From NCBI RefSeq assembly GCF_022878925.1, contig NZ_CP084627.1:1-64000 (forward strand): a DNA stretch of 64,000 nucleotides, written 5' to 3'. Origin of the DNA: Caballeronia sp. TF1N1 (GTDB lineage Bacteria > Pseudomonadota > Gammaproteobacteria > Burkholderiales > Burkholderiaceae). This document shows positions 1 through 14,325 of the stretch, piece by piece (positions within the stretch are counted from its first letter, which is position 1; every line of letters begins with the position of its first letter). The position numbers and the translations under genes were made by a program. The notes beneath the pieces were generated by a model, which was not told the origin of the DNA, ran no database searches, and was given only the letters and a program-made list of their open reading frames with translations.

Positions 1-1365
1 ATGGCAACCAAACGCGCAAAGAAAACCGATGTTGTCAGCCCGAGCTCGGCTGAGTTGCGCAAGGCGGTCGAAGCCATCGCGATTCAACCGAAGAGCGGCA
101 AGATCACGCTGCTTACTCGCAAGCTCTTCAACGTTCTGCTCGCTGTGGCGCAGCAGGCGGACGAATCTGGCGACACCTACCGCGCGTTGCTGTCCGACAT
201 TGTCGCGAATTCCGCATTCGATTCAAACGATACAGCGCTGGTCAAGGAGCATCTGCGTCGCATGGTGTCGGTGCAGGTCGAGTGGAGCACGGGCACGTCG
301 AGCCAGAAGCCCGGCCGCAAGTGGGGCATCTCGACGCTCATCGCCGACGCGGAAATTCTCGAGGACCCGACGACGCGCCGCGTATGGGTCGAATTTTCCT
401 TCGCTCCAAAAATCAAAAAGAAGCTGCTCGATCCGGTGCAGTATGCGCGTCTGAGCCTGCAGTTCCAAAGCCAGTTGCGCAGCAGCGCGGGTCTTGCGCT
501 TTATGAAATATGCGTGCGTTATCTGACCAACCCCAGCCATCTGACGATGCGCGAAACGTGGGAGTGGTGGCGGCCGATTCTATCCGGCACGCCAGATACC
601 GAGGCTGGAGACGAGGCCAAGCGAGAGTACAAGTATTTCAAGCGCGACTATCTTCGTCCCGCGATCGCGGAGGTCAACGCCGTCACTAACATTTTCGTCG
701 AACTGGTGGAACATCGAGAGGGGCGTCGCGTCGCCGAGATTCAATTCCGCGTTACGGAGCGCAAGCAGCCGATGCTGGCGCTCGACGAACATCCGAACGT
801 CTTCGACAGCACGCTGGTCGACAGGATGGTAAAGATCGGCATTCCGTTGAAAGAGGCGCAGACGCTGTACGCCGACAGCGAGGAAAATCGCATCCGGGCG
901 GCGTTGCAGATGACCGAGCAACGGTTGCGCAGCACGACGCTTCCGCCTATCAGAAGCGCGGCAGCGCTGTTCAAGGACGCGCTCAAGAAGGGCTATGCGC
1001 CGCCGCTCGAAGCGCTACCGCCGGCAACGGCCAACGGCGCGCCGCGGTCGACAGCGGGATCGGCATCCGGCGCCGATGATCTCAAGGCACGCCTGCTTGG
1101 CGAGTTTTCGGCATATAGAAGGAAGGAAGCGCGTGCGCTCTACGACGAGCAAGGTGAGCGGGAACGGGAGCTGGCGCGGCAAAGTTTTGAAGACGACGTG
1201 TTGCCGGAACTCGGCACGCATATGCGCGACGATTGGCGTAAGCGCGGCCTCGATTCGAAGCTGGCGGAAACGTCATTTTTCGACTGGCTGGCTAGGAAGA
1301 CGTGGGGCGAGCCGACCGATGGGGATTTGCTCGCCTTCACACTTAGCCAGACACGCGCTAACTGA
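1..1365 (+). CDS. repA: Replication initiator protein (Rep_3/RepA-like) of a secondary replicon
   Basis: Encodes 454 residues. The first half (about residues 30-260) has the pattern of plasmid initiators with tandem winged-helix domains, which bind iterons and open the origin. The C-terminal part is charged and predicted helical. It lies tail to tail with parB (26 bp between stops), the usual neighbourhood of Burkholderia secondary-chromosome replication genes. The ATG is the first base of the window, so promoter and iterons, if upstream, are not visible; they would be at the other end of a circular replicon. The family call rests on overall sequence feel and on the adjacent parAB genes rather than on a catalytic motif. 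Confidence 0.85.
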   Translation: MATKRAKKTDVVSPSSAELRKAVEAIAIQPKSGKITLLTRKLFNVLLAVAQQADESGDTYRALLSDIVANSAFDSNDTALVKEHLRRMVSVQVEWSTGTSSQKPGRKWGISTLIADAEILEDPTTRRVWVEFSFAPKIKKKLLDPVQYARLSLQFQSQLRSSAGLALYEICVRYLTNPSHLTMRETWEWWRPILSGTPDTEAGDEAKREYKYFKRDYLRPAIAEVNAVTNIFVELVEHREGRRVAEIQFRVTERKQPMLALDEHPNVFDSTLVDRMVKIGIPLKEAQTLYADSEENRIRAALQMTEQRLRSTTLPPIRSAAALFKDALKKGYAPPLEALPPATANGAPRSTAGSASGADDLKARLLGEFSAYRRKEARALYDEQGERERELARQSFEDDVLPELGTHMRDDWRKRGLDSKLAETSFFDWLARKTWGEPTDGDLLAFTLSQTRAN

Positions 1366-1391: not shown

Positions 1392-2453
1392 TTATTTCTT
1401 CTCTTCGTTGAACTGAAGCATGGTTTCGATCTGACGCAGCAGTTCATCTCGTCGATCCCGTGACAAGCCGCGCAACCGCAACTCAAGGCGATCCTCGCCA
1501 TATGACTTGAGATCGCCGACCGCGACGCCGTCCAGTTTAATCTCCATTCGTTGGGCATAGCGTTGACGGCCGGGCGGCTTGGGCACTTCTTGTCCGCTTG
1601 CGCGTCCCTTCACGATATCCGCGACTTGTCGCGTACTCAGATCATCCGACGTGATCTTGTTGATGAGGCGCAGCGTGGCATCGCTGCCACGCGCCGAGTG
1701 GTAGCGCGTGATTTGATAGGCCATGTTCGACCCGAATCGATCAGGCCGAGCGACCATTTCCTGCATGACGTTCTCAGGAAGCTTCGCAACCGATAGCGCG
1801 ACTGCGATAGTGGATTCGTCTAGCCCAAGATGGTCGGCCAACTCTCGTTGGCTCTGGAAGTGTTGCTCGTCCAGGAAGCGTCGCCAGACGACGGCATTAT
1901 CGAAGACGGTTTGCGAATCCCGCTGAACGTTTAGATCGTAGCCAAGCTTGTAGCTTTGAATTCCAATAGGCAGATCGACGACAATCGCTTTGACGGTTTC
2001 CTTGTTGGCTTCCTTGAGCGCACGGACGCGACGGCCACCGTCGCTTACGAAGAAGGTCCCAGCGTTATCGTAGTCGGGGATGACGTGGATGGCCTGCTGC
2101 TGTCCCTGCCTTGCAAGGTTGACGGCTAGTTCGGCGATCGATGCCTTGAGGTAGAAATGGCGCGGATTAAACGGGCTCGCTTTGATCGCCTTTAGCGGCA
2201 ACTCGATGACCTGCCCAGCCGTGTAGCGGTTCGCCCGTCGCCAGGCGCGAAACTGCTCGGATTCGGTGCTGACGTCTGCGTCGGCCTGCTCGTCGGATAC
2301 GAAAGTGCTTGCGCGTCCATTCGCGGCCTGTCCGACGCTTTGTATATCGACGATTCCATCGATGGCGTTCAGGCGATCCAGAGCGGTTCGCTTCTCGCTG
2401 CTTGTCGTATCGGGGCGGGCCTTGAAGCCTTTTGCCAGTTGGGACGGTTTCAT
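1392..2453 (-). CDS. parB: ParB-family centromere-binding partition protein
   Basis: 353 residues. After a low-complexity N-terminal 80 residues comes the ParB/Spo0J nucleotide-binding domain, with NPR at 96-98 and the GGRR motif at 139-142 typical of CTP-binding ParB proteins. A helix-turn-helix region follows around 199-225, then a basic linker and a C-terminal dimerisation segment. It binds parS and, in the family, slides as a CTP-dependent clamp to load the ParA system. It is downstream of parA on the same strand with a 24-bp gap. Its ribosome-binding site AAGGA overlaps the edge of a parS-like palindrome, which could couple centromere binding to parB expression. Confidence 0.93.
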   Translation of the reverse strand: MKPSQLAKGFKARPDTTSSEKRTALDRLNAIDGIVDIQSVGQAANGRASTFVSDEQADADVSTESEQFRAWRRANRYTAGQVIELPLKAIKASPFNPRHFYLKASIAELAVNLARQGQQQAIHVIPDYDNAGTFFVSDGGRRVRALKEANKETVKAIVVDLPIGIQSYKLGYDLNVQRDSQTVFDNAVVWRRFLDEQHFQSQRELADHLGLDESTIAVALSVAKLPENVMQEMVARPDRFGSNMAYQITRYHSARGSDATLRLINKITSDDLSTRQVADIVKGRASGQEVPKPPGRQRYAQRMEIKLDGVAVGDLKSYGEDRLELRLRGLSRDRRDELLRQIETMLQFNEEKK

Positions 2454-2461
2454 TCAGGGTC

Positions 2462-2477
2462 CTTTATGCGCATAAAG
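2462..2477. other. parS-like centromere palindrome, site 1
   Basis: Perfect 16-bp palindrome CTTTATGCGCATAAAG filling most of the parA-parB gap. An identical copy lies at 3410-3425. It belongs to the TTTATGCGCATAAA class of centromere sequences that I recall from Burkholderia secondary replicons. On the minus strand its last bases form part of the parB Shine-Dalgarno (AAGGA, 6 bases before the ATG). Confidence 0.85.
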
Positions 2478-3140: not shown

Positions 3141-3409
3141 TTTAATGCTCCAGTTTTTGCAGGCGGTTGAATTTTACATTGAGGTTTAGTAATTTCAACT
3201 TTAATTCGACATTAAATGTGTCGTTAGCCATTTGGCATAGGGGTGAGCTTTAGCTGATTTTGTGAAAGCGCGGACAAGGGCCTGATGGATGCAGCTTCAA
3301 ATCGCACATCATGCTCGACAGCAAGAAGCTAAGGCGTGAGACCAATATCTCCCCGTCACGGCTTTAGGCGTCTTGGAGATTGTTAAGCGGTGCCGCGCTG
3401 CCAGACCAG
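3141..3409. other. AT-rich parA upstream region, no gene
   Basis: About 270 bp between the parA start and the second parS-like site. The first 90 bp (about 3160-3250) are clearly AT-richer than the surroundings and should hold the parA promoter; they contain the palindrome listed separately. I see no convincing open frame, no consensus DnaA box and no iteron array by eye. Confidence 0.5.
3207..3223. promoter_or_regulatory. Candidate parA operator palindrome
   Basis: CGACATTAAATGTGTCG has arms CGACA and TGTCG, and within it ACATTAAATGT is a perfect odd-centred palindrome. It sits about 70 bp upstream of the parA GTG in the AT-rich stretch, where a partition-operon repressor would be expected to bind. 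The function is inferred from position only. Confidence 0.4.
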
Positions 3410-3425
3410 CTTTATGCGCATAAAG
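3410..3425. other. parS-like centromere palindrome, site 2
   Basis: Second exact copy of CTTTATGCGCATAAAG, outside any credible gene, about 270 bp upstream of parA and 17 bp before the heptamer satellite. Two identical copies flanking parA support its identity as the cognate centromere. Confidence 0.85.
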
Positions 3426-3442
3426 TCACGGCAACCTCGAAG

Positions 3443-3807
3443 CCCCGAAGCCCCGAAGCCCCGAAGCCCCGAAGCCCCGAAGCCCCGAAGCCCCGAAGCC
3501 CCAAAGCCCAAAGCCCAAAGCCCAAAGCCCAAAGCCCAAAGCCCAAAGCCCAAAGCCCAAAGCCCAAAGCCCAAAGCCCAAAGCCCGAAACCCGAAACCC
3601 GAAACCCGAAGCCCGAAGCCCGAAGCCCGAAGCCCGAAGCCCGAAGCCCGAAGCCCACAGCCCGAAGCCCGAAGCCCGAAGCCCGAAGCCCGAAGCCCGA
3701 AGCCCGAAGCCCGAAGCCCGAAGCCCGAAGCCCGAAGCCCACAGCCCGAAGCCCACAGCCCACAGCCCACAGCCCACAGCCCACAGCCCACAGCCCACAG
3801 CCCACAG
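3443..3807. repeat. T-free 7/8-bp tandem satellite, quadruplex-prone on the minus strand
   Basis: Fifty-one uninterrupted units in blocks, plus strand. CCCCGAAG x7 and one CCCCAAAG fill 3443-3506. CCCAAAG x11 (3507-3583), CCCGAAA x3 (3584-3604) and CCCGAAG x7 (3605-3653) follow. Then CCCACAG x1, CCCGAAG x11 (3661-3737), CCCACAG x1, CCCGAAG x1 and CCCACAG x8 (3752-3807). No T occurs on the plus strand, so no stop codon can exist in any frame of either strand; the long open frames here (SPKPEA-like repeats) are artefacts. The minus strand is GGG (GGGG in the 8-mers) every 7-8 bases with 4-base spacers, the classic G-quadruplex pattern. The block order suggests growth by slipped replication. Confidence 0.97.
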
Positions 3808-3897
3808 CCCGTAACGACACCGCACGCCCCACCCCCAAAATCGCCTATCCTAACCCTGCCTCAACCGCCAATCGCCGACCGAGTCCGGAGCTCCGTA

Positions 3898-6315
3898 ATG
3901 ACCGTTCGCAACCTGGACATCCTGTTCGCGCCGAAGTCAATTGCTGTGATCGGCGCATCGACGCGGCCGGGCAGCATCGGCGAAATGGTATGGGCCCGCG
4001 CCAACAGCGCTGGATTCAAAGGCCCAATCTGGCCAGTAAATCCAAAGCACCAAACCATAGGCGAACAGCCGAGCTTCGCCGACATAGCTCACCTCCCCGA
4101 AGCGCCGAGCGTTGCGGTGCTATGCACGCCTCCTAAAACCTGGCCTCAACTAGTTGAACAACTCGGAGACTGTGGAACCAAAGCTGTCGTCGTTATTGGA
4201 GAGGCAGCGAGACGACACTCCGCGAGAGCCGAATTCATCTCCAATGCAGAGTCCCACGAATGGACTGCCCGTACCCTTGCCGCCGCGCGTCCCTTCCTGC
4301 TGCGCGTGGTAGGACCGGCAAGTCTCGGCGTAGTGTCTCCCGCCGTCGGCGCATGCCTCGGGGCGCCAGCGTGCAGTGTCAAATCGGGCGGCGTCGCTTG
4401 GGTATCAGGCTCGAATGCGCTAACCAATGGCGTGCTCGGCTGGGCCCGCGCGCGGGGCCTCGGCTTCTCACGCATCGTCGCGTTGGGCGATGAAGCTGAC
4501 GTCGATTCCGGCGATATCCTCGACTTCCTCGCCACCGACGTATCGACCAAAGCGATTCTTCTTGCGATCGAAACCGTCCGGGCCGCACGCAAATTTATCT
4601 CCGCCGCGCGCGCCGCCGCGAGAAATAAGCCGGTACTCGTTCTACGAACCGGACACGACGATCCATTCGATCGCCTATACGGTGCAGCCTTCCGCCGTGC
4701 CGGACTTGTACGCGTGGATTCGCTCGACGATCTGCTCGACGAAATCGAAACCCTGGGCGTAGGAAGCGTCGCAGCCGGCGACGTGGCAACCGTCATTACC
4801 AGCGATCGCGGCGTCGCCACTTTGGCACGAGATGCGTTCGGCAAAGCCGGCGATGATCTGGCGCAATGGCCACTCTCCGCACGCGACGCCGTCTCGCTCG
4901 CGTTACCCCGAGCCGAATCCGGTAATCCCCTTTTGCTCGGCGACGATGCGTCGCCCGCCGATTTCGGCATCGCGGTGGAAACGCTGGCTCCGCATCGCGA
5001 CACCGGCACTATTTTCGTCGTACACGCGCCGACGCACAGCGCGCCCGTCGCGGACGTCGCTCGCACATTGATCGCCGCGCGCCGTCATGCTCATCGCGGA
5101 TTGCTCGCGTGTTTCTTCGGTTGCGTGGATGCCGCCACCCGCGACGCACTCCACGCAAATGGCATCCCGGTTCACACCACCCCGCAGCGGCTCGCGCGTG
5201 GCTTTGCACGCCTCGTCGATTTTCGTCAGGGACGCGAATTGTTGATGCAAACACCCGACGGACTTCCAACGGAAATTCCAGAAGAAATCGATATCGCGCA
5301 AAACGAAATTCGAATCTCGTTGGAAAACGGCATCGCGGAATTGAATGGTGAACGTGCGGCGCGCATCCTCGCCCGCTTCGGGATCACGGTGAAGCCGGGA
5401 CCGCCCGATTCCTTTTCCGCCGATGCAGTCGAGATACAGACGCGCCTGCTCAACCATCGCGTCTTTGGACCGGTGTTCGAATTCAAGGCCGAAGGCGCGC
5501 TCGGACTTGCCGATGCGCTTCATGAATTTGCGTTGCCTCCGCTCAACCCTGTCCTTGCGCGCGATCTCGTCATGCGTTCGCCTCGCTCGCGCGAGTTGCC
5601 CACCGACATGCTGTTGAACGCGCTGACCGCGCTGTCGCAAATGGTTTGTTATATAGAGGAGATCGTCGCACTGCGCCTGACGCTGCGTGTCACGCGCGAT
5701 TCGGTTGCGGTGCACGAGCCGCAACTGACCTTAGGCGCGCATCGCAAGCAGCTAGCAATCGTGCCGTATCCGCGATGCATGGATGAGACGCTCGACTGGC
5801 GCGGCATGCGTATCACCGTGCGGCCCATTCGTCCCGAGGATGAAGATGCGCATCGCGCGTTCGTATCGGCGAACACGGCCGAAGATTTGCGCTTGCGATT
5901 TTTCGGCGCCGTGCGCAGTTTCGATCATTCGCAACTCGCGCGGATGACCCAGATCGACTACGACCGCGAAATGGCGTTGATCGTGACGCGGAGCATTGCG
6001 GAGGGCGCCACGGAAACGCTGGGCGTCGCACGCGCCATCTCCGATCCGGACAACGAGACTGCCGAGTTTGCCGTCGCTGCGCGCTCGGACATGAAAGGGA
6101 AGGGCTTGGGCTCGCTGCTGCTCACGCGAATCATCGACTATGCGCGAGCGCGCGGGACACGCTGGCTGGTGGGCGAGGCTTTGCGCGAGAACACGGGGAT
6201 GATCGCGCTCGCGCGCAAAGCCGGTTTCGAATTGATCAGAACCGAAGATCCGAGCGTCGTTGGTTTCCGGATGCGGCTCGGTGAAAAATCGACCGAGCCG
6301 GCCGTTCGCGATTAG
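3898..6315 (+). CDS. Pat/YfiQ-like NDP-forming acyl-CoA synthetase fused to GNAT acetyltransferase
   Basis: 805 residues, ATG preceded by GGAG 7 bases upstream. The N-terminal CoA-binding Rossmann domain begins with SIAVIGAST. A succinyl-CoA-ligase-like domain follows around residues 160-300 (GDEADVDSGDILDFLA). A shortened ATP-grasp-like region occupies about 470-630. A GNAT domain lies at about 640-800, with an acetyl-CoA loop in KGKGLGS. Full-length relatives are near 890 residues, so the ATP-grasp part looks reduced. Members acetylate lysines of metabolic enzymes such as acetyl-CoA synthetase; whether this one does is inference. It is monocistronic, and its stop overlaps the stop of the convergent gene at 6312. 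Confidence 0.82.
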   Translation: MTVRNLDILFAPKSIAVIGASTRPGSIGEMVWARANSAGFKGPIWPVNPKHQTIGEQPSFADIAHLPEAPSVAVLCTPPKTWPQLVEQLGDCGTKAVVVIGEAARRHSARAEFISNAESHEWTARTLAAARPFLLRVVGPASLGVVSPAVGACLGAPACSVKSGGVAWVSGSNALTNGVLGWARARGLGFSRIVALGDEADVDSGDILDFLATDVSTKAILLAIETVRAARKFISAARAAARNKPVLVLRTGHDDPFDRLYGAAFRRAGLVRVDSLDDLLDEIETLGVGSVAAGDVATVITSDRGVATLARDAFGKAGDDLAQWPLSARDAVSLALPRAESGNPLLLGDDASPADFGIAVETLAPHRDTGTIFVVHAPTHSAPVADVARTLIAARRHAHRGLLACFFGCVDAATRDALHANGIPVHTTPQRLARGFARLVDFRQGRELLMQTPDGLPTEIPEEIDIAQNEIRISLENGIAELNGERAARILARFGITVKPGPPDSFSADAVEIQTRLLNHRVFGPVFEFKAEGALGLADALHEFALPPLNPVLARDLVMRSPRSRELPTDMLLNALTALSQMVCYIEEIVALRLTLRVTRDSVAVHEPQLTLGAHRKQLAIVPYPRCMDETLDWRGMRITVRPIRPEDEDAHRAFVSANTAEDLRLRFFGAVRSFDHSQLARMTQIDYDREMALIVTRSIAEGATETLGVARAISDPDNETAEFAVAARSDMKGKGLGSLLLTRIIDYARARGTRWLVGEALRENTGMIALARKAGFELIRTEDPSVVGFRMRLGEKSTEPAVRD

Positions 6316-7937: not shown

Positions 7938-8969
7938 ATGACGTCCTCAACTTCCTTTCGCCGCCTGGCCGTAAAAGCCGGCGTGGCGCTCGCCGTACTT
8001 TCGACCACCGGTGCAGTTGGCCTCGCGCAAGCCGCCGATGCCGGCAAGGTCGGCCTCGGTCTCCCGCTTCTGACTTCGCCGTTCTGGCAGTCGTACAACA
8101 ACTATCTGCCGAAGTACGCGAAGGACATGGGCATAGACATCCTTGCGCCCGTCAACTCGAACGGCGATCCCGCGCAGCAGATCACCGACATGAACAACCT
8201 GCTGAACCTGGGCGCGAAGGGCATCGTGGTCGGCCCGCTGGATTCGGCCGCGATCAGCCGCGCGCTCGACGCCTCGGCGGCGAAGAACGTGCCGGTCGTC
8301 GCCGTCGATGTCGCGCCGACGCAAGGCAAGGTCGCGATGGTCGTACGCGCCGACAACCGCGCGTATGGTTCGAAGTCGTGCGAGTACATTGGCGAGCACG
8401 TGAAGTCGGGCAAGGTCGTGCAGATCATGGGCGATCTGGCATCGGTCAATGGCCGCGATCGTTCGGAAGCGTTTCGCGAGTGCCTGAAGAAATTCCCGTC
8501 GCTGAGCCTGCTCGAGATTCCCGCCGCATGGAAGGGCGAGGCCGCCGCGACCGCGCTCGACAGCCTGCTCACCGCGAACCCCGACGTGAAGGCGATCTAT
8601 ATGCAGGCGGGCGGCGTCTATCTGTCGCCGACGTTGCAGACCTTGCGCCGCAAGCAGTTGCTGGTGAAGGCGGGCGATCCGAAACACATTGTGATCGTGA
8701 GCAATGACGGCATTCCGCAGGAATACGACGCGATCCGCCGTGGCGATATCGACGCGACCATCTCGCAGCCCGCCGATCTCTACGCAAAGTACGGCCTCTT
8801 CTATATCAAGGCGGCTCTGGCGGGACAGACATTCAAACCGGGCCCGACGGATCACGGCAGCACGATCGTGCAGCGCGGTCCAGGCATTCTCGAAGATCAA
8901 TTGCCCGCGCCGCTCGTGACGAAAGCCAATGTCGATGACAAAACACTTTGGGGCAACACCGTCAAATGA
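7938..8969 (+). CDS. Sugar ABC transporter periplasmic binding protein (RbsB/XylF type)
   Basis: 343 residues with a signal peptide (basic RR at residues 8-9, hydrophobic stretch, AQA cleavage near 32). The mature protein has the type I periplasmic fold: the N-lobe start VGLGLPLLTSPFWQS, the repeated hinge region GAKGIVVGPLDS, and IVSNDGIPQEYDAIRRGD near the C-terminal lobe. It should deliver an aldose to the permease encoded downstream. It is first in the operon, overlaps the ATPase gene by ATGA, and has AGGAG upstream of its ATG. The ligand cannot be read from sequence; L-fucose or a related sugar is inferred from the catabolic genes. Confidence 0.9.
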   Translation: MTSSTSFRRLAVKAGVALAVLSTTGAVGLAQAADAGKVGLGLPLLTSPFWQSYNNYLPKYAKDMGIDILAPVNSNGDPAQQITDMNNLLNLGAKGIVVGPLDSAAISRALDASAAKNVPVVAVDVAPTQGKVAMVVRADNRAYGSKSCEYIGEHVKSGKVVQIMGDLASVNGRDRSEAFRECLKKFPSLSLLEIPAAWKGEAAATALDSLLTANPDVKAIYMQAGGVYLSPTLQTLRRKQLLVKAGDPKHIVIVSNDGIPQEYDAIRRGDIDATISQPADLYAKYGLFYIKAALAGQTFKPGPTDHGSTIVQRGPGILEDQLPAPLVTKANVDDKTLWGNTVK

Positions 8970-13275: not shown

Positions 13276-14325
13276 ATGAACGGAGACACGCAGGATGCCG
13301 TCACGCGCCGACGCAAGATCGGGCGGACGGATCTGGAGGTGACGGCACTTTCGCTCGGCACGGCGCCGCTCGGCGGGCTATATCACGAACTGACGGAAGA
13401 CGAGGCGCGCGCTACAGTCGATGCCGCGTGGCAAGCGGGCATCCGTTTCTTCGATACCGCACCGCATTACGGACACACGAAGGCAGAACACCGTCTCGGC
13501 GATGCCCTGCGACGCCACGCGCGAAGTGACTACGTGCTCTCGACCAAAGTGGGCCGCCGCTTCGTGCCGCGCACCGCGCCCGACGACGGCAGCGAAGGCT
13601 GGGCCGCACCGCTACCGTTCCAGGCCATCTACGACTACACCTACGACGGCATCCTGCGCTCGTTCGAAGACAGCCAGCAGCGGCTCGGCATGATCGACAT
13701 CGATATCGTGCTGATACACGACATCGGCCGTGTCACGCACGGCGAAAAAAACGCGCATTACTGGCGTCAGCTCACCAATGAAGGCGGCTTTCGTGCGCTC
13801 GATGAACTCAAGCAGTCGCGCGGCGTGAAAGCAGTCGGCCTCGGCGTGAACGAAGGCGCGGCGGTGCGCGAGGCAATGGCCGAATACGACATCGACTGCG
13901 CGTTGCTCGCTGGCCGCTACACGCTGCTCGAACAGAACACGCTCGACGATCTCTTGCCCGAGTGCGAACAGCGCGGTGTGAGCATCCTGCTTGGCGGCGC
14001 GTTCAATTCGGGCATTCTCGCGCGCGGTCTCGATGCCGACGCGCAAGGCGATCTCAAATTCAACTACGGCGATGCGCCCAAAGAGATCGTCGATCGTGTG
14101 GCGAGGCTGGAACGCATCTGTCGCGAGTATGGCGTCGCGCTGTCGACGGCCGCCCTGCAGTTTCCTTATGCGCATAAAGTCGTCGCCACGGTGTTGATGG
14201 GCGCGCGCAAGCCCGAGGAAGTCCGTGAGAATGCGGCGTCATTCGCTACACCGGTTCCTTCGGCGTTGTGGGACGCTTTGCGTGCGGCTGGCTTGCTGCA
14301 TGAGAAGGCGCCAACACCGCAATGA
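13276..14325 (+). CDS. Aldo/keto reductase, probable L-fucose/D-threo-aldose 1-dehydrogenase
   Basis: 349 residues with an intact catalytic tetrad: D60 and Y65 in FFDTAPHYG, K91 in LSTKVGR and H148 in VLIHDIG. In this subgroup the enzyme oxidises the aldose C1 to a lactone with NAD(P). The next gene is a matching lactonase, and the stop/start overlap (ATGA at 14322) couples them. A biochemically characterised relative in Burkholderia multivorans is an L-fucose dehydrogenase, which supports but does not prove the substrate. Codons 297-301 contain a parS-like palindrome. Confidence 0.88.
   Translation: MNGDTQDAVTRRRKIGRTDLEVTALSLGTAPLGGLYHELTEDEARATVDAAWQAGIRFFDTAPHYGHTKAEHRLGDALRRHARSDYVLSTKVGRRFVPRTAPDDGSEGWAAPLPFQAIYDYTYDGILRSFEDSQQRLGMIDIDIVLIHDIGRVTHGEKNAHYWRQLTNEGGFRALDELKQSRGVKAVGLGVNEGAAVREAMAEYDIDCALLAGRYTLLEQNTLDDLLPECEQRGVSILLGGAFNSGILARGLDADAQGDLKFNYGDAPKEIVDRVARLERICREYGVALSTAALQFPYAHKVVATVLMGARKPEEVRENAASFATPVPSALWDALRAAGLLHEKAPTPQ
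14164..14179. other. parS-like sequence inside the aldo/keto reductase gene
   Basis: CCTTATGCGCATAAAG differs from the two parS-like sites near parAB at one base (second position C for T) and keeps the full inner palindrome TTATGCGCATAA. It encodes Pro-Tyr-Ala-His-Lys, a segment that is often conserved in this reductase family, so chance or protein constraint is possible. Confidence 0.45.

Follow-up and report, generated by a model that had tools for sequence, protein, structure and literature searches.

A heptamer satellite beside parS in Caballeronia sp. TF1N1: very probably a young, slippage-grown microsatellite in a centromere spacer

The window, i.e. the whole stretch of 64,000 nucleotides analysed, opens with a rep–parB–parA locus, right at the beginning of a 1,468,831-bp contig that is taken to be the Caballeronia second chromosome. 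A satellite array separates parA, read from 3140 on the minus strand, from a divergent gene that begins at 3898 on the plus strand and whose CoA-ligase-like and GNAT product presumably resembles the Pat/YfiQ protein acetyltransferases. The features of the locus are collected in Table 1. Judged from its position and conservation, the AATCGCCTATCCT motif ahead of the divergent gene is probably part of the promoter of this gene. Exact copies of the palindrome CTTTATGCGCATAAAG were found at 2462, 3410 and 1460557, and copies one mismatch away at 14164 and 1462641; this contig carries all of them and, if it is circular, they are near position 1. Allowing two mismatches added three places, of which one is on contig 3 and the other two are on this contig. 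The sites fit a Bsr-type parS cluster: CTTTATGCGCATAAAG shares the palindrome, the T-rich 5' side and the central CG with the parS of Burkholderiales secondary replicons in the portion of PMC5450999 available. This likeness belongs to the neighbouring palindrome, whereas the array itself is not palindromic; a 16-bp palindrome conserved beside parAB is present at 3410–3425, but not in the array. In the first 900 bp of the Caballeronia parA spacers, one to four parS cores were present at 51 of 52 loci, the remaining locus, cut by a contig end, having none. The parS spacing in these spacers is loose.

Table 1. Features of the rep–parB–parA locus and of the adjacent satellite array
Feature	Position	Strand	Basis
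Rep3-type replication initiator	1..1365	+	ORF and family match
parB	1392..2453	-	ORF and family match
Second exact copy of palindrome CTTTATGCGCATAAAG, in parA–parB gap	2462..2477		sequence scan
parA, ParA family partition ATPase NF041546	2478..3140	-	ORF and family match
Promoter-like site for parA, TTGAAA-16-TAAAAT, clear of the array	3171..3198	-	consensus match only
parS-type 16-bp palindrome CTTTATGCGCATAAAG, 17 bp from the array	3410..3425		sequence scan
Satellite, 51 heptamer/octamer units, GGG runs on minus strand	3443..3807		unit parse and composition
Octamer block, 7 x CCCCGAAG and 1 x CCCCAAAG	3443..3506		unit parse
11 x CCCAAAG	3507..3583		unit parse
3 x CCCGAAA	3584..3604		unit parse
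CCCGAAG block, 19 copies, interspersed with two single CCCACAG	3605..3751		unit parse
8 x CCCACAG	3752..3807		unit parse
AATCGCCTATCCT motif ahead of divergent gene	3839..3851	+	AATCGCCTAT part present in 31 relatives
CoA-binding / succinyl-CoA-ligase-like / GNAT protein, divergent from parA	3898..6315	+	ORF and family match
parS-like site, one mismatch to CTTTATGCGCATAAAG	14164..14179		sequence scan

The array measures exactly 365 bp, contains no T and is made of 51 whole uninterrupted units, 8 octamers and 43 heptamers. An additional CCC follows at 3808, directly after the last whole unit, and the T-free run around the array extends from 3438 to 3811. The initial annotation, which had described a T-free tract of this length and unit number in which one strand alone shows GGG or GGGG, the minus strand, was accurate to the base, and the closeness to a parS-like site that it had reported was confirmed for a chromosome-2 parS. 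The units are ordered in blocks: seven CCCCGAAG and one CCCCAAAG are followed by 11 CCCAAAG, three CCCGAAA, seven CCCGAAG, one CCCACAG, 11 CCCGAAG, one CCCACAG, one CCCGAAG and eight CCCACAG. On the minus strand the units read GGGCTTC, GGGCTTT, GGGTTTC and GGGCTGT, besides the GGGG forms. Steps at the block borders are one or two base changes. The variants form 10 runs, compared to 39.4 expected on shuffling (minimum of 29 in 20,000 shuffles), and the pattern (CCCN4)x3 CCC had 42 overlapping matches across the 7.07-Mb genome, all inside the tract at 3443–3807; together these two results exclude a chance origin of the array. ORFs of 121–248 aa traverse the array in several frames and could be read as a heptapeptide-repeat protein. 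However, the T-free strand and its A-free complement are both without stop codons, thus all six frames are open by composition; the 248-aa ORF had no family match, and the array was missing from the relatives examined. Coding for a repeat protein is hardly conceivable on these grounds and was rejected.

The GC skew was noisy, with a minimum at 8208, and so iteron-like sites were used instead for the side of the origin. A script with the published chromosome-2 consensus (PMC4948915, in the portion available; maximum score 15) recovered 18 such sites: 16 with scores of 12–14 at -1338 to -135, one with a score of 15 at -2953 and one with a score of 12 at 4078, where positions left of position 1 assume a circular contig. 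Sixteen of the 18 sites lie left of rep, which suggests that the origin is probably there too, on the far side of rep from the array. The G-rich minus strand would then probably be, judged from the position of the iterons, the leading-strand template for a rightward fork from ori2. The published c2 iteron starts with ctCCCGAAAA in the part of PMC4948915 at hand, and three array units are CCCGAAA, as would be expected of a decoy that titrates Rep through units similar to the CCCGAAA half of a chromosome-2 iteron. Such a decoy is nevertheless highly improbable: the top iteron score in the tract was 10 of 15, a value attained or surpassed at 82 of 119,966 background positions, whereas the iteron-like sites score 12–15. 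The second half-site of the iteron is missing from the units, and matching units are present in unrelated bacteria. With scores at background level only, the tract was rejected as an iteron or initiator decoy.

Conservation was examined in 58 Caballeronia genomes. Six had no parA orthologue at the locus, so that 52 loci were compared, the own locus included and four of them cut by contig ends. The array was present at one of the 52 loci, its own, and was not found at the 51 others (four cut by contig ends); it is thus not a conserved part of the centromere, and the conservation among related replicons expected of a functional repeat upstream of parAB was not seen. The initial annotation had proposed to compare the tract among relatives and had counted its lack from related replicons, with no loss of stability, against a function; as far as presence is concerned, this lack is what we observed. 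It had also named a random scattering of the same satellite over the genome, which did not occur for the CCC-type unit with all its matches in the tract; long arrays of other kinds are present elsewhere among the sampled stretches of the genome. In 31 relatives with a AATCGCCTAT motif (small variation allowed), the distance from the last parS to this motif was 22–132 bp in 30 and 642 bp in one, with a median of 54 bp; these figures cover only the 31, the remaining 20 relatives having shown no such motif. The own gap is 415 bp, or 50 bp after subtraction of the 365-bp array. Thus the array is an addition to an otherwise normal spacer. Beyond the genus the CCC-type unit is widespread but sporadic: a related pattern had a match in 44 of 398 family genomes, and the unit was present in at least 115 stretches of the genome collection, from several phyla.

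The array ends 31 bp from the conserved motif, a place where repeats can alter transcription, and its G-rich strand is antisense to the divergent gene, the preferred orientation upstream of ORFs according to the portion of PMC4692102 available (there within 50 bp, here at about 90 bp). Both observations would suit a tunable upstream spacer, the length of which tunes the promoter of the CoA-ligase/GNAT gene or shields it from ParB spreading. But arrays with a score of at least 46 were absent from this gap in the 31 relatives with the motif, and we regard such a role as improbable.

The minus strand of the tract holds 52 G-runs of at least three bases with a mean G4Hunter value of 1.24, and the tract has the most extreme 200-nt G4Hunter value in the window. 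Other four-run G3+N1-7 motifs were absent from both strands of the 64 kb. The repeated GGG(G) on the minus strand only is therefore real, but "near-ideal", as the initial annotation had called the quadruplex sequence, is an overstatement for a moderate G4Hunter value and loops of mostly 4 nt. These G-runs would permit a G-quadruplex with a function at the centromere or the origin, acting by fork pausing, as a ParB barrier or in origin opening. In favour of it, circular dichroism gave evidence for quadruplexes in GGG-containing heptamer repeats of Xanthomonas and Nostoc, as far as the available text of PMC4692102 goes, and the G-rich strand is the probable leading-strand template. Against it stand the 51 other Caballeronia loci that lack the array (four cut by contig ends), the position of 16 of the 18 iteron-like sites across rep, and the nine other arrays in the parS gap, of which two have GGG-type units and seven have none. 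Quadruplex formation is thus not what puts arrays there; the quadruplex ability of the tract is probably incidental, and a functional element of this kind is very unlikely. A dedicated effect on fork movement, on ParB spreading or on the opening of the origin, as had been put forward earlier, found no support in a tract that occurs at one of 52 loci, probably lies across rep from the origin and scores as iteron at background level. E. coli did not stably maintain quadruplex repeats placed in a reporter, and helicases altered the rates (PMC10530614, in the part available), thus quadruplexes may add to the instability of the array.

Taken together, the array is very probably a young intergenic microsatellite, a VNTR of the 6–9-bp kind, that grew by slippage in a tolerant and perhaps repeat-prone parS spacer. 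Most likely it is neutral, and it probably does not serve the centromere. The seed was probably a short CCC(C)GAAG-like stretch between the outermost parS and the motif ahead of the divergent gene, where the spacer normally measures about 50 bp. Growth would have proceeded by slipped-strand copying, perhaps along with unequal recombination. We infer that it was replicational, was tolerated owing to the loose parS spacing and served no dedicated purpose. Quadruplexes of the minus strand on the probable leading-strand template may have raised the instability, yet the explanation works without them. Identical neighbours far above chance are as slippage predicts, and slipped replication, which the initial annotation had read from the block order, was supported by the run count and by a sister array beside parS that differs by whole units. 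The neutral hypermutable tract that it had listed as an option is likewise supported. The sister array was found in Burkholderia stagnalis (L425; NZ_CP156686.1) and in genome G363 of genus g11 (L386), with 97–98 % identity in both flanks. AGCGCGA is present three times in both, AGCGTGG three times in L386 and 13 times in L425, a block expansion of ten units in one variant. In L425 the heptamer array is 12 bp from parS. Variation of the unit number was observed at this sister locus and would be expected for the array of TF1N1, which is likely a strain marker and an extreme case of heptamer growth.

The parS gap of relatives raised the question whether the position matters. We compared 117 parA-side spacers, own excluded (50 from Caballeronia, 30 of 39 from g20 and 30 of 41 from g11, the best-scoring ones, and 7 named, i.e. 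four Burkholderia and three Mycetohabitans), with 357 control gaps of at least 250 bp (203 kb), 234 from Caballeronia relatives and 123 from four Burkholderia second-chromosome records. Arrays were scored for periods of 2–12; the cut-off of 46 was chosen after the weakest array of a Caballeronia relative (L225) had scored exactly 46. Eight of the 117 spacers contained an array, compared to one of the 357 control gaps (Fisher test, 8e-5), where related species are not independent and some spacers are clipped at about 1.5 kb. The difference held for both sets at 400 bp or more (8/86 vs 1/202, p 3e-4), without L225 (7/117, p 3e-4), without g20, which has no controls (6/87, p 3e-4), for Caballeronia alone (2/50 vs 0/234, p 0.03) and for g11 with the four named Burkholderia (4/34 vs 1/123, p 0.008). 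An array of L363 within the first 900 bp upstream of parA was outside the spacer by the ORF rule and is excluded from the eight; two Burkholderia control arrays (L414, L432) in sequence called coding were excluded from the control gaps. The eight units were GCAA, TTGGCT, a 7-mer, CGGCA, two different 9-mers, an 8-mer and AGCGTGG; as they differ, the events look independent. Among ten parS-gap arrays compared, the array of TF1N1 is the longest in bases, but not in unit number, with at least as many units in the CGGCA array of L382. In two other Caballeronia the arrays lie between parS sites (L030:330-422, GCAA; L225:347-399, TTGGCT; counted from the parA side).

This recurrence could mean that the chromosome-2 parS gap, be it through ParB-bound DNA, fork pausing or ori-proximal replication, actively drives the growth of repeats and that the array is one outcome, a possible though doubtful reading. 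Array ends were within 35 bp of a parS in six of ten cases (own and L363 included), compared to 3.1 expected, but the p value was 0.055 and this cut-off was picked after looking. The score cut-off was set with L225 in view, g20 has no background, the control arrays L414 and L432 remain uncounted by being called coding, and a long unconstrained spacer would likewise accumulate arrays. A ParA-like match was seen in two of the 144 loci retrieved for a CCC-type satellite, 123 of which have an array under a stricter pattern; this low number also speaks against the position as driver. One of the two, L092:1100-1827 (G329 contig 3), carries (CCCGCAG)10 within a different partition locus, upstream of the ParA-like gene. 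Five copies of the palindrome ATCTCCACGTGGAGAT, not all of them perfect, surround it as a parS-like cluster of another replicon, which fits the active reading. In the other, L072:606-2051, a CCCGCAG-type array is located just upstream of another ParA-like gene; a parB match was absent from the 3-kb locus. None of the 144 loci contained any of three scanned parS sequences, and a general link between CCC satellites and partition genes is unsupported.

The neutral microsatellite has points against it as well: besides the recurrence in the parS gap, the 365-bp array far exceeds the maximum of 136 bp among 123 CCC-type arrays from other loci, some of which are clipped by locus or contig ends. The recurrent unrelated arrays in the chromosome-2 parS gap are a more interesting point than the array itself, and array and neighbours suggest a bacterial centromere spacer that tolerates, or even promotes, satellite growth. 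That the chromosome-2 centromere gap acts as a true birthplace of repeats in Burkholderiaceae, in which ParB-loaded parS or early ori2 forks promote slippage and unrelated 4–9-bp satellites keep arising, is a speculation that we consider unlikely; if true, bacterial centromeres would carry fast-evolving satellite DNA, loosely as in eukaryotes. Among the matches listed in open-licence literature for parS with tandem repeats in Burkholderia and for microsatellites with parS, no title dealt with satellites at parS.

The tract is a new, unusually long example of the known 6–9-bp VNTR arrays. Units of six to nine bp are enriched in prokaryotic phyla (PMC12699852, in the portion available), and heptameric repeats are over-represented in many bacterial genomes, with polymerase slippage as suggested cause (cited in the available part of PMC4692102). 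Arrays of B. pseudomallei are mostly of 6–9 bp, mostly intergenic and mutate at about 5e-5 to 2e-4 per locus, according to excerpts of PMC1853098; the array here shares unit length, intergenic site, bacterial family and the expected mutability by slippage, and has the intergenic tandem unit of 6–9 bp by which Burkholderia VNTRs are defined. It differs in size, since the same excerpts give 4–21 units in the text and 7 x 27 in one table row, compared to 51 here, and in its location inside a centromere spacer, with the unit number known from one strain. The GGGNATC repeats of Xanthomonas and Nostoc, in the passages available of PMC4692102, have in common the GGG heptamers, 4-nt spacers, intergenic site and a G-strand antisense to the downstream gene. 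However, the GGGNATC unit does not occur among the units of the tract, and those repeats are dispersed over about 180 places, whereas one place in 7.07 Mb had at least four GGG heptamers here; they are also under-represented between divergent genes, where our array sits, and reach 26 units at most in Xanthomonas. Direct-repeat cis elements of Deinococcus radiodurans (PMC7671480, in part) likewise lie upstream of parA on a secondary replicon, but reportedly act in replicon maintenance, while the array here is missing from the relatives examined. With the yeast minisatellite CEB1 (PMC7063842, in part) it shares a G-rich array on the probable leading-strand template; organism and unit are different, and instability was measured for CEB1.

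The sampled parts of the TF1N1 genome are richer in long arrays than those of relatives, in favour of the microsatellite reading. A sample of 940 kb of the 7.07 Mb (47 stretches) contained nine arrays with a score of at least 46 in six stretches, compared to none in 1,060 kb (53 stretches) of near-complete relatives (6/47 vs 0/53, Fisher test, 0.009) and none in 400 kb (20 stretches) of draft relatives. Against this, a number of the nine fall within coding regions, and the intergenic part of the excess, by the ORF rule in long gaps, is only 3/141 vs 0/234. A simple GC3 rule served to tell coding regions; it counted a hexamer array in L278 as coding although this array apparently follows right after a stop codon. 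The genes mutS, mutL and polA were present without stops; a loss of mismatch repair or of Pol I as source of the excess was therefore rejected for these three genes. The hexamer array on contig 1 (L278:7338-7586) is a T-free stretch of about 248 bp, in which three CCAAAG are followed by about 38 CCCAAG, and apparently ends at the stop codon of a minus-strand gene. A 10-mer array with the unit TCAAGCGCAT is located at L278:10564-10711, and L267:1528-1674 has a block array of heptamers that gives way to CGGCTT hexamers. The flank of the L278 array, and the flank only, had matches in 57 of 58 genus genomes.
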